Shown here: positions 58,271 through 61,408 of the stretch, one piece after another
Layout: each line of letters opens with the position of its first letter
Position numbering within the stretch: position 1 is the stretch's first letter
Origin: Alphaproteobacteria bacterium 46_93_T64
GTDB lineage: Bacteria > Pseudomonadota > Alphaproteobacteria > Sneathiellales > Sneathiellaceae
Direction of reading: 5' to 3'
Length of the DNA stretch: 64,000 nt
Assembly (NCBI GenBank): GCA_002163135.1
Contig: MAAN01000011.1
Location: 62,001 to 126,000 of the forward strand
The notes under the pieces: generated by a model
The model's database searches: none
The model's input: the letters and a program-made list of their open reading frames with translations, nothing else
What the model was told of the DNA's origin: nothing
Made by a program: the position numbers and the translations under genes

Positions 58271-58297
58271 AAGGCGGTGCACTAGTGTGCCGCCTTT
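58271..58297 (+). terminator. Intrinsic terminator of purA
   Basis: AAGGCGG...CCGCCTT hairpin (58271-58293), with the stem continuing through wobble pairs, followed by T's. Confidence 0.88.
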
Positions 58298-58454: not shown

Positions 58455-60470
58455 ATGGAAAATGGGCAAAATAGTGGTGTCTTGCGGTCTCGATATAAAG
58501 TGCTGTTGCAGCACCCGCTTGGGCACATGGATAGCGGGGAAAATCGAGCATATAAAGTTGAAGACATGCGAGATTCCAGCAATGTCCTATACGCACTTGT
58601 TATTGCCTCGGGTATGCCTTTTCGCTCCTCAATCATTGAAACGATAACGGCAAAAAATACACCGGGTATGATAGACTTACATTCCCATGGTGTTGTGCAA
58701 TTTGACGCGACAGATTTCAGATATGTTTTCGTGTTTGATCTGCCCGTTGGTGGTTATGCCTTCACTGAAGGCAAGGGATTGTCCGAACAGGTAGTCCTCG
58801 GGGTGATTGTTCCAAGAATAGTCGACGTCATAATCAATTTGGCCTCTCGCGAGATCAGCCATAGAAATATTCGTGCTGATAATGTCTTCTACATGGAAGA
58901 GGGAAATTCCGGTGTAGCGGTAGGGGAGTGTGTATCCACCCCGCCGGGATCGCTGCAGGCTGCCGTTTACGAGCCATTAGAAAGTGCAAATGCCCTTGCC
59001 GATGGTCGCGGTGAAGGCAGTTTGATGACTGATATTTATGCTCTTGGGGTGATGATTGTTCACATGTTGGGAGGGACCCATCCTGGTGAAGGCCGAACGC
59101 CTGCAGAACTGTATGCAGCAAAATTAATGCACGGTACATATGCGGTTTTGGTTCCAAAAATACCGGCATCCTCTCGCGTTAGCTTTTTATTGGCGGGCCT
59201 CTTGAATGATGACCCTTCCCGTCGTTGGAATTTGGATGTGCTGATCCGATGGAGGGATGGTGTATATGAGCGTCCTCGACCCGGTTTTGGCGATAGGCAA
59301 GCACCAGGGCCACTTGTTTTTGACGGAAATGAATACTTATCGCCCAGAGTATTAGCATTAGCAATGACACGCCGCCCTGCGCAGGCATATTCTTTGCTTG
59401 AGGGGGGCAAAATCGAAAGCTGGGTCCGAAATTCCCTGAATGATAAGGATGCGGGGGCAAGACTGGCAGACAGCATTGCGACTGGGGGCCGGGGATCAGG
59501 AGGCGCTCGGAGAAGAGAGCTTCAATCTGTGGCCAAAGCCAGTGCTATTCTAGATAGCCAAGGTGCCTTTTGGTATCGTGAGTCGTCTTTCTCTCGTGGA
59601 GGATTAGGGGGAGTATTAGCATATGCATTTCGTAATGAAGGGGCGGTCAAAACAGCTATAGCTGAATTGTTGGAAGGTGGTGTTTTAGTTGACGCTGTCT
59701 ATAGTGATCTTCAGAAAACTGAAGGGGGCCGACGCAAAGATGATAGCTGGGTTGGAATAGGAAAGGTGACCGAGTGTTTCGCGTATATGGAAAAACGCGA
59801 AGATCTGGGTTTTGGTTTAGAACGTTGTTTGTACGAATTGAACACCAGACTGGGTTGTATGAGTCCAGTACTGAAGGGAAGTTATGTTAGTGACGCTGAA
59901 AAACTCATAGATCTCCTCGAACAGCTGGCTCTTAAGGAGAATGGTAAAATAAATCCATTCGATCGTCATATATCTGCGTTTGTTGCAACTCGAACACCTA
60001 ACACGCAAAAAATGTTTCATAAACTCTCGACTATTCCACTAAAGGATGTGGATTACACATTGAACTTAGTTATGATACTTGGCCGCATGCAACATCTGTT
60101 GAGCCCATCTCCCAAACCTGGTTTGTGCCTGTGGGTCAAGTCTGCGCTTACACCTATCATCAATACAATTCATTCAGATATTCGGCGCGAGTTTTTGAAA
60201 AAGAAACTGGATAAGGTAATAGAACGGGGAAATATCGAACTTATTTTGAAGGAAATGGATCTAAAGAATAATTTGAAACGTGATGCGAGTGAGTATGATC
60301 AAGCAATTACATCATTTGCTTCAATCGTAAACAATATAACGGCGTTAGAGAATGGAACAATCGCCAGAAAATACGCCGCGCATAAATACGGCCACTGGAT
60401 TGCCTCCATTATGTCTATCGCAGCCCTACTTTCCAGTATGGGCTTATCCTATATGTATTTTTTAAGGTAG
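58455..60470 (+). CDS. Membrane-anchored pseudokinase
   Basis: 671 residues. An N-terminal region (about 15-280) is a degenerate Ser/Thr kinase fold. The catalytic loop reads SHRNIRADNVFY near 134-145, where kinases have HRDxKxxN, so the catalytic Asp is Asn. The DFG site reads GEC. No VAIK lysine is evident, since the matching strand reads VLYALVI. Late motifs survive: DIYALGVMIVHMLGGTHP near 195-212 and DDPSRRWNLDVLI near 252-264. About 370 mostly helical residues of unknown fold follow, then one C-terminal membrane helix (about 649-669). It should face the cytoplasm as an inactive kinase-like scaffold or signal receiver. Three bases of overlap-free spacing separate it from the next gene. 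Confidence 0.8.
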   Translation: MENGQNSGVLRSRYKVLLQHPLGHMDSGENRAYKVEDMRDSSNVLYALVIASGMPFRSSIIETITAKNTPGMIDLHSHGVVQFDATDFRYVFVFDLPVGGYAFTEGKGLSEQVVLGVIVPRIVDVIINLASREISHRNIRADNVFYMEEGNSGVAVGECVSTPPGSLQAAVYEPLESANALADGRGEGSLMTDIYALGVMIVHMLGGTHPGEGRTPAELYAAKLMHGTYAVLVPKIPASSRVSFLLAGLLNDDPSRRWNLDVLIRWRDGVYERPRPGFGDRQAPGPLVFDGNEYLSPRVLALAMTRRPAQAYSLLEGGKIESWVRNSLNDKDAGARLADSIATGGRGSGGARRRELQSVAKASAILDSQGAFWYRESSFSRGGLGGVLAYAFRNEGAVKTAIAELLEGGVLVDAVYSDLQKTEGGRRKDDSWVGIGKVTECFAYMEKREDLGFGLERCLYELNTRLGCMSPVLKGSYVSDAEKLIDLLEQLALKENGKINPFDRHISAFVATRTPNTQKMFHKLSTIPLKDVDYTLNLVMILGRMQHLLSPSPKPGLCLWVKSALTPIINTIHSDIRREFLKKKLDKVIERGNIELILKEMDLKNNLKRDASEYDQAITSFASIVNNITALENGTIARKYAAHKYGHWIASIMSIAALLSSMGLSYMYFLR

Positions 60471-60476
60471 TGCATA

Positions 60477-60974
60477 ATGTCAACTGATGCACAAAGCAAA
60501 ACTGGAGCAAAAGGGTACGTCCCGCTTCTTGTGTTTATCGCGCTGGGCTCGGTGTTCGCGCCCCCGACTATTATCGTCCTTGCAGTGGGTATGATCCCCA
60601 GCATCATCGCAAGATTTGCAAATCCTGCCCGCGTTCCTGGAACAATTGCCTCTATGATTGCGCTGAACCTGGCAGGTGTCATACCTGCATTAGGATTTCT
60701 ATGGGAGCGTGGCCACACAATAGATCAAGCGCTTGATCTTCTCTCAGATCCATATATGTGGCTGATGATGTATGGCGGGGCAGGTGTTGCTGCTTTTCTG
60801 TTGTGGGGTGTCCCAACGGTGGTTCTTGCTTTCTATGAGGTGCAAGCAAAGCAACATATAAAGCGTCTTGAAAAACGGCGTTCTAAGATGATTGAAGAAT
60901 GGGGCGCTCAAATCATTGAAGATTCGAAAATACAGCCTTCGGCTGGTAAAAACAAAAAAACACCAAAAAGCTGA
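60477..60974 (+). CDS. Small multi-pass membrane protein coupled to the pseudokinase
   Basis: 165 residues with about three membrane helices (roughly 13-45, 55-75 and 96-117). A strongly basic, helical cytoplasmic tail follows (VQAKQHIKRLEKRRSKMIEE near 122-141). The ATG lies six bases after the pseudokinase stop, so the two are probably cotranslated and may form a complex. I recognise no known family. A partner, anchor or transport role cannot be chosen from sequence. Confidence 0.72.
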   Translation: MSTDAQSKTGAKGYVPLLVFIALGSVFAPPTIIVLAVGMIPSIIARFANPARVPGTIASMIALNLAGVIPALGFLWERGHTIDQALDLLSDPYMWLMMYGGAGVAAFLLWGVPTVVLAFYEVQAKQHIKRLEKRRSKMIEEWGAQIIEDSKIQPSAGKNKKTPKS

Positions 60975-61048: not shown

Positions 61049-61408
61049 ATGTCTGAATACGTATACTGGATTATCGAAGCAAGTGTTGCAGAAGGTAAAT
61101 TGGACGAACTTAAAGAGTTGATGGTGACGATGAGTGAGGCGACATTGGCGGATGAGCCAGGCGCTCTTAACTACGAATGGTCACTAAGTGAAGACGAAAA
61201 GGCCTGCCACATTTTCGAACGCTACGTAGATTCAGATGCAACAATGGTTCATATGAAGAACTTCGGTAGTAAATTTGCCAAAAGCTTTATGGGTGTGTTG
61301 CAGCCAACAAAATGCACACTCTATGGCAACCCTGATGAATGCGTTTGTAAAGCAATGAAACCGATGGGATATATCGCTATGTCATCGGCTGCTGGGTTCT
61401 CGCGATAA
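61049..61408 (+). CDS. Antibiotic biosynthesis monooxygenase (ABM) family protein
   Basis: 119 residues. The dimeric alpha+beta barrel pattern is visible: VYWIIEASVAEGKLDELKEL near 5-24, DEPGALNYEWSLSED near 36-50 and ACHIFERYVDSDATMVHMKN near 53-72. Relatives are small quinol or cofactor-free monooxygenases, such as YgiN. The 27-residue C-terminus has a Cys-x-Cys pair (DECVCK) unusual for the family. The substrate is unknown. AAGGGAAG precedes the ATG. Confidence 0.82.
   Translation: MSEYVYWIIEASVAEGKLDELKELMVTMSEATLADEPGALNYEWSLSEDEKACHIFERYVDSDATMVHMKNFGSKFAKSFMGVLQPTKCTLYGNPDECVCKAMKPMGYIAMSSAAGFSR

Follow-up and report, generated by a model that had tools for sequence, protein, structure and literature searches.

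Bacterial Ser/Thr kinases have been grouped into 42 families, five of which consist wholly and two largely of pseudokinases, defined by the loss of one or more of the beta-3 Lys, the HRD Asp, and the DFG Asp (O'Boyle et al., 2025; PMC12599244; cited here and below as far as the accessible part of that survey describes the families). EssB/YukC is a membrane pseudokinase that acts as a scaffold in type VIIb secretion, MviN (ActPs3) is a pseudokinase that is linked to a membrane protein and recruits a regulator, GLW is proteobacterial and has a C-terminal transmembrane region, and DLHK has a kinase fold without the beta-3 Lys (PMC12599244). Here, we analyzed two adjacent genes in a stretch of 64,000 nucleotides from the Sneathiella-like genome of Alphaproteobacteria bacterium 46_93_T64 (contig MAAN01000011.1, positions 62,001 to 126,000; the whole stretch is referred to as the window). 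They encode a 671-residue protein with a degenerate kinase domain, termed KIN, and a 165-residue membrane protein, termed PAR. The two most likely form an ancient complex of the inner membrane whose core is a catalytically dead kinase and which would serve as a scaffold or sensor, a reading to which we assign a probability of about 60%; KIN-PAR is thus probably not a kinase but a scaffold or sensor at the membrane. The pseudokinase state of the family, the predicted fold, the hydrophobic tail of KIN, and the pairing of the genes are direct results of the computation.

The two genes lie on the same strand with a spacing of six bases, at the coordinates of the initial annotation:

58455..60470, plus strand: KIN, gene of a 671-residue, probably tail-anchored pseudokinase, stop included (open reading frame, full-length orthologues, AlphaFold2 model)
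60477..60974, plus strand: PAR, gene of the 165-residue membrane partner, stop included (open reading frame, orthologues, AlphaFold2 model)
58455..59264, plus strand: pseudokinase domain, KIN residues 1-270 (VIA-align to WNK3; PF00069 sub-threshold)
58590..58601, plus strand: beta-3 YALV, residues 46-49, with Val49 at the position of the VAIK Lys (orthologue alignment)
58860..58868, plus strand: HRN replacing HRD, residues 136-138 (orthologue alignment)
58881..58883, plus strand: retained catalytic-loop Asn143, the end of HRDxxxxN, which binds metal in active kinases (orthologue alignment)
58926..58928, plus strand: Glu158 at the position of the DFG Asp (register by profile alignments and model)

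The view that KIN is a pseudokinase, originally derived from the window copy, was borne out for the entire family. Among 105 aligned orthologues with 24-81% identity to the window protein, none had Lys at the beta-3 position (Val in 49, Ile in 46, Arg in one, and others), and three had Asp at the HRD position (Ala in 56, Ser in 17, Gly in 14, Asn in 9, and others); His136 was retained in 102. A further 39 copies, which are mostly divergent or paralogous and were added to the alignment automatically, had the beta-3 Lys in two cases and the HRD Asp in none. The family satisfies the definition given above and, as judged from these alignments, the pseudokinase state is family-wide and not that of one decaying gene. 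For two KIN pairs, the nonsynonymous divergence (dN) was 0.111 in the pseudokinase part vs 0.149 in the rest, and 0.149 vs 0.211, with synonymous divergence (dS) being saturated. The activation segment is remodelled in a conserved manner (Q168 in 102, E173 in 102, and R185 in all 105 orthologues), and the kinase back end DIYALGVMI is present at residues 193-201, as previously noted. Of the alignments, A1 comprised 27 of the first 30 loci (L002-L031, except L024, which is split, and L020 and L022, which are partial), A3 left out 19 duplicate loci (including the partial L106), L046, L130, and the interrupted L163, and A4 left out the same loci plus L121 and short PARs.

The initial annotation had regarded all three catalytic elements as lost, which is correct for the Lys and the HRD Asp but not for the third element, as an acidic residue occupies the DFG Asp position in 104 of the 105 orthologues (Glu in 56, Asp in 48, Gln in one). 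The reading of DFG as GEC was one residue out of register. Profile alignment with L181, a kinase from another class of Pseudomonadota, gave vvLGec/AVIADFg, with Glu158 opposite the DFG Asp and Gly157 preceding it, and the alignment with MAPKAPK2 (vvLGe/LKLTD) likewise placed Glu158 opposite the Asp. A single-sequence phmmer alignment of KIN with MELK, contrary to this register, placed Gly157 opposite the DFG Gly. We assigned Glu158 to the Asp position because we followed the two profile alignments and the AlphaFold2 model, in which strand beta-8 is predicted to extend up to residue 156, over the phmmer result.

Asn143 was invariant in the 105 orthologues, and both metal-binding positions thus appear to stay filled, whereas the beta-3 Lys and the catalytic base have been lost. 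Such a protein could sense a ligand or act as a non-canonical enzyme, in which Asn143, the acidic residue 158, and Arg140/Arg57 would hold a metal-nucleotide or another anion; KIN would then sense this ligand or catalyze another transfer, like SelO (AMPylation) or SidJ (glutamylation). The conservation of Arg57 (104/105) and Arg140 (98/105), in addition to Asn143 and the acidic residue, is in line with this, and ATP binding without the beta-3 Lys has been proposed from models for DLHK (arginine-based, with one Arg in the catalytic loop), ActPs2, and DYD (PMC12599244). The complete absence of the beta-3 Lys speaks against it, as do the alpha-C Glu position, which holds Glu in two of the 105 and is mostly hydrophobic (register from the MAPKAPK2 profile alignment), and the further 39 copies, which keep the acid in 28, the Asn in 36, and Arg140 in 26. 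We consider this alternative rather unlikely.

Two annotated Azospirillum records name KIN a "serine/threonine protein kinase" and PAR a hypothetical protein, and KIN could in principle still phosphorylate proteins by means of other residues. L049, L136 (Skermanella), and L150 (Arenibaculum) read HGD[IV]RPTN, with Asp at the HRD position, but the beta-3 Lys is missing in these three as well. With Lys and Asp lost almost family-wide, and with both of these hallmarks of an active Hanks Ser/Thr kinase absent in the window KIN, protein kinase activity is highly unlikely. The annotation contrasts with the conservation, which speaks for a dead kinase and for two genes working together.

As judged by their text descriptions, KIN does not fit any of the seven pseudokinase families, a comparison that covers seven of the 42 families (PMC12599244). 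DLHK resembles KIN not only in the missing beta-3 Lys but also in an Arg that follows the catalytic position (DLHK, HRDLRP; KIN, HR[AGSN]IRP), and the similarity of KIN to DLHK-like proteins extends past the kinase domain, although a search with this additional stretch alone gave weak similarity. However, DLHK retains the HRD Asp and has GFG, neither of which is found in KIN, and it is proteobacterial, often fused to helicase/DNA2 domains, and has no membrane segment, whereas a hydrophobic tail is present in 104 of the 105 KIN orthologues (PMC12599244). GLW shares the C-terminal transmembrane region, which the hydrophobic tail of KIN matches, but has GLW in place of HRD and poly-Leu (LLLL/W) in place of VAIK, where KIN has HR[AGSN] and FAL[VI] (PMC12599244). 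EssB/YukC, set beside KIN by description, occurs in Firmicutes and has the motifs YTFVLAPD and TRG, whereas MviN is a domain inside a large transmembrane protein of actinobacteria, with the motifs VALT and LSIDHPSR, a deleted DFG, and an activation-loop deletion (PMC12599244). ActPs2, likewise actinobacterial, has a beta-3 Arg, HRN, a DFG deletion, and a long activation-loop insertion (PMC12599244), whereas KIN has the beta-3 Arg in one and Asn at HRD in nine of the 105 and no DFG deletion. DYD of actinobacteria and firmicutes combines a beta-3 Arg with the DYD motif, both of which KIN lacks, and CP1 is without a transmembrane region and is linked to a COG3899 domain, in contrast to the tail-anchored KIN (PMC12599244). 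Pfam did not reveal a second family in KIN, with no search being aimed at COG3899. The designation of the pair as undescribed agrees with a literature search, in whose partly accessible texts we found no description of KIN-PAR. Defence kinases (PADLOC MkoA, PD-T4-6, MAD6) were rejected as candidates, as there was no full-length match and the best one (4.5e-6) covered the kinase domain only.

Structure prediction for the individual proteins supported the assignment of the domains. The AlphaFold2 model of KIN, based on 105 sequences, had a mean predicted local distance difference test score (pLDDT) of 94.6 and a predicted template modelling score (pTM) of 0.88. Residues 2-270 aligned with WNK3 in VIA-align (Z 22.7, root-mean-square deviation 3.1, 254 residues aligned), and the WNK label is meaningless because the next rows of the structure search were tied. 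We are confident that the model represents a bilobal protein kinase-like fold. PF00069 matched KIN at 6.4e-6 and 26.2 bits, below the Pfam cut-off of 31.7 bits, and the KIN family profile matched the solved MAPKAPK2 at 1.4e-13; on this profile evidence, the relationship of KIN to kinases is more than chance. The parts that follow the pseudokinase domain are:

59301..60260, plus strand: C-terminal helical domain, residues 283-602, with GFGLERCLYELN and DRH motifs (model, invariant residues)
60261..60464, plus strand: single long helix forming a stalk into the tail anchor, residues 603-670 (DSSP on model)
60399..60455, plus strand: C-terminal hydrophobic stretch, probable membrane anchor, residues 649-667 (hydropathy)

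In the model, the domain of residues 283-602 is helical with two short hairpins. No consistent Pfam family was found for it in 27 scanned members, and G454, E456, R457, Y460, C468, and D503 were invariant in the 105 orthologues. A profile comparison of slices detected no internal repeat, whereas the model shows two units of a hairpin plus helices. The tail anchor proposed initially corresponds to residues 649-667, with a Kyte-Doolittle mean of 1.59, and a 19-mer of at least 1.6 lies within the last 45 residues of 104 of the 105 orthologues. Such a 19-mer occurs also elsewhere in 31 of the 105, and in the window protein the kinase helix 113-131 scores higher (2.02). As the score alone is not distinctive, the call is based on position and conservation, by which the C-terminus of KIN is a probable membrane anchor.

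The features of PAR are:

60504..60812, plus strand: membrane region, residues 10-112, about four hydrophobic helices (model, hydropathy)
60816..60932, plus strand: residues 114-152, end of the 61-residue helix 92-152, probably cytosolic (model, charge)
60894..60905, plus strand: EEWG motif, residues 140-143, with Trp142 invariant in 97 members (alignment)

The model of PAR (mean pLDDT 88.9, pTM 0.67) contains helices at residues 11-27, 29-38, 40-48, 54-78, 82-90, and 92-152. P41, N64, and P113 are invariant in the 97 members, as is W142. With the same cut-off, the window protein has four hydrophobic stretches, and the 97 members have five (one member), four (14), three (39), two (39), or one (4). 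The C-terminus is basic, as had been noted, with 12 Lys and Arg vs 6 Asp and Glu in residues 114-165, and the charges suggest that both ends of PAR are cytosolic. The window copy had no Pfam or NCBIfam match, no consistent Pfam family emerged over the 97 members, and one weak PHROG match (0.012) was found. Structure comparison gave no Foldseek match at 0.001 and a best VIA Z of 5.6, and no PDB profile match was better than 1.3; this lack of fold matches is no proof that the fold is new.

The initial annotation had suggested that the two proteins act as a pair, and the distribution of their genes strongly supports this. Among 387 alphaproteobacterial genomes sampled evenly, the KIN profile matched 147, of which 130 were strong matches (8.4e-79 or better) and 17 weak (1.0e-20 to 1.7e-4). 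The weak ones were not counted as KIN; none of these genomes was PAR-positive, and G377, which had the best match of the 17, may contain part of a KIN. PAR was found in exactly the same 130 genomes, and no genome of the 387 had one gene alone at the threshold used. KIN and PAR were adjacent in 126 of the 130; in two of the remaining four (G288, G320) they were split over contigs of broken assemblies, and in the other two (G287, G217) they were unlinked, well inside separate contigs. At the level of copies, 135 of at least 150 KIN places (with at most three candidates scored per genome) had an adjacent PAR. PAR directly followed KIN in all 26 first-aligned loci with enough DNA (27 aligned) and was present in 94 of 100 further loci, many from the same genomes, with too little DNA after KIN in L106 and L157. 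Head-to-tail KIN-PAR-KIN-PAR arrays were found in L195 (G327), L193 (G145), and contig C80 of G261. Antisense frames chosen by greedy gene calling in G+C-rich loci were kept out of the counts.

The two proteins also diverged in a correlated manner. A scan of contigs from named genomes gave no match with a single KIN protein and 217 relatives with the profile of alignment A1, the best 80 of which are the named loci. For the 43 of these 80 loci with all four proteins (KIN, PAR, purA, hisZ), the distances of KIN and PAR had a partial correlation of 0.75 when purA was controlled for, and the controls with hisZ gave 0.23 and 0.12. Without Sneathiella (33 loci), the KIN-PAR value was 0.49 vs 0.31 and 0.00, and none of 2000 permutations was as high. 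It could be argued that KIN and PAR are not partners and stay together since the purA-rpoH region is conserved, with purA in 61 and rpoH in 40 of the 80 named loci (at least 80% of the protein; contig-end loci included). Both genes are, however, retained where they are unlinked and are duplicated together in tandem, the Azospirillum ramasamyi pair has no annotated purA or rpoH within 8 kb (in an incomplete gene table), the KIN-hisZ correlation is weaker than that of KIN and PAR, and neither gene was ever found alone in a genome at threshold. We therefore regard a mere neighborhood as very improbable and a functional pair as strongly supported by the genomic data.

We infer a physical complex with a defined topology, client binding, and direction of signalling from these data. 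In such a complex, the stalk of KIN would end in the C-terminal membrane anchor and hold the pseudokinase and helical domains in the cytosol. PAR, with about four membrane helices and a long C-terminal helix that ends in EEWG, would be the dedicated partner, and the stalks of the two proteins would pack together. The pseudokinase cleft or the family-specific activation segment, along with the helical domain, may bind a cytosolic client or an anionic or metal ligand; this binding would be relayed along the stalk to PAR, which could organize or gate an envelope process. A more specific form, in which KIN is a further bacterial pseudokinase family that retains the metal site and works with PAR as a membrane-tethered ligand sensor controlling an envelope process, with most hosts (90 of 122) having no strong Hanks kinase, is tentative and less probable than the general one.

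Several observations weigh against the scaffold or sensor complex. The conserved metal-site Asn and acidic DFG residue would not be needed by a pure scaffold, and the housekeeping neighbors purA, hisZ, and rpoH give no pointer to a cellular process. Without Sneathiella, the KIN-hisZ control also correlated (0.31), leaving a modest margin. In addition, pairing was not strict for individual copies. Four loci with enough DNA (L123, L140, L163, L169) had no recognizable adjacent PAR, and 15 of the listed KIN places lacked one: seven fragments or contig edges, two unlinked copies, five lone paralogues (G112, G147, G229, G298, G361; no PAR within the loci read), and contig C35 of G140, which has a weak adjacent PAR (1.3e-9). 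Conversely, 11 of 146 PAR places had no adjacent KIN (135 paired), namely two split, two unlinked, three in G038, three in G158, and one in G135.

Some of these copies have features of their own. The hosts of L123, L140, L163, and L169 are Roseospira, an uncultured Rhodospirillaceae, and two Magnetospirillum, and a stop interrupts the KIN frame of L163 near its end. The KIN paralogues L204, L206, L218, L220, and L221 read HG[AG]IRP[TND][NS] and have no PAR in their loci, and their genomes also hold a paired KIN. Extra PAR copies occur in G038 (L190, L191, L192, in which no KIN was found) and in G158 (contigs C4, C86, C137), each genome having one KIN-PAR pair as well. In G014:C18:390290-392279, KIN is in two overlapping frames, which reflects either gene breakage or a sequencing error. 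The neighbors of split and orphan copies are presumably housekeeping-like, as recognized from the starts of their sequences.

STRAD and HER3 are eukaryotic pseudokinases that regulate active kinases allosterically, and KIN could act in the same way on an active Hanks kinase. Of 122 KIN-bearing genomes, which are presumed to be common to both draws, 32 gave a Pkinase match at E < 1e-15 and 90 had no match below 1e-15, with weaker matches, KIN among them, being unsorted. MviN is phosphorylated by the active kinase PknB (PMC12599244), which also would fit a regulatory role. In the window genome, however, PF00069 detected KIN alone (27 bits) and PF07714 had no match, and G012 and G015 of the same genus had no PF00069 match. 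As these searches of the host revealed no further Hanks kinase that KIN might regulate, we consider this role extremely unlikely.

The initial annotation had expected the pair to be restricted to relatives of Rhodospirillales, which was broadly right, although the pair extends beyond that order. In a draw of 397 genomes of the phylum, all 20 strong matches (6e-111 or better) were from Alphaproteobacteria; 209 genomes matched at 0.001, and those beyond the 20 were weaker kinases. The 130 pair-bearing genomes of the class draw span 88 genera and 62 family codes (the latter counted by eye). The 80 named loci comprise 47 from Rhodospirillales, 13 from Sneathiellales, one from Puniceispirillales, one labelled Rhodobacterales, 17 without an order, and one labelled Ignavibacteriota, and cultivated hosts among them include Magnetospirillum, Azospirillum, and Sneathiella. 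Among the best 80 of the 217 relatives, the closest species-named record to the window KIN is Sneathiella glossodoripedis (68% identity), and one metagenome-assembled genome has 81%. This distribution indicates that the KIN-PAR pair is old and widespread in alphaproteobacteria. The Ignavibacteriota label belongs to the bin of L114 (Stygiobacter), whose serA-hisZ-purA-KIN-PAR layout is like that of Magnetospirillum L115 and L128, and the bin is most likely mislabelled.

The best match outside the class was L181 (G421, 1.5e-28), a 907-residue open frame on the reverse strand. By eye, it has all catalytic residues (VILKFY, HRDIKPGN, ADFG) and hydrophobic C-terminal segments, and it is apparently an active kinase. 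Its alignment with KIN crosses from the kinase into the helical region, up to profile position 439, and no PAR match was fused to it or beside it in the 6 kb examined. A tree of 46 kinase domains placed KIN on one branch (100/99), which L181 joined (96/92), whereas L182-L186, which we assigned as DLHK-like from helicase motifs (in the longer ones) and kinase motifs, were on a separate branch (100/99); the root is arbitrary, and L181 as a sister of KIN is a reading of this tree. We infer that KIN may descend from an active kinase, with a C-terminus that was helical and membrane-associated, through the loss of catalysis and the gain of PAR. With a dedicated partner, cultivated hosts, and this active-looking relative, KIN is a clean test case for bacterial pseudokinase function, with fewer confounders in a host in which no other Hanks kinase was detected.

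Upstream of KIN are genes that we take to be serA, hisZ, and purA from their translations. The opposite-strand rpoH follows downstream of PAR, and hisZ, purA, and rpoH are annotated alongside the Azospirillum thermophilum copy. Between purA and KIN lies one further feature:

58271..58296, plus strand: intrinsic-terminator-like hairpin in the gap between purA and KIN (11 pairs plus T run)

Five terminator-like sites were found in the region vs 3.0 expected. Because of the hairpin between purA and KIN, KIN-PAR is probably an operon of its own. A mobile origin was rejected, as there was no phage match and the only plasmid matches were to five Azospirillum replicons, which are 0.88 to 1.46 Mb in size. 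Downstream of PAR, a gene at 61049-61408 encodes an ABM domain (PF03992, 3.4e-8), and its relatives among the named loci occur at Sneathiella-type loci only.

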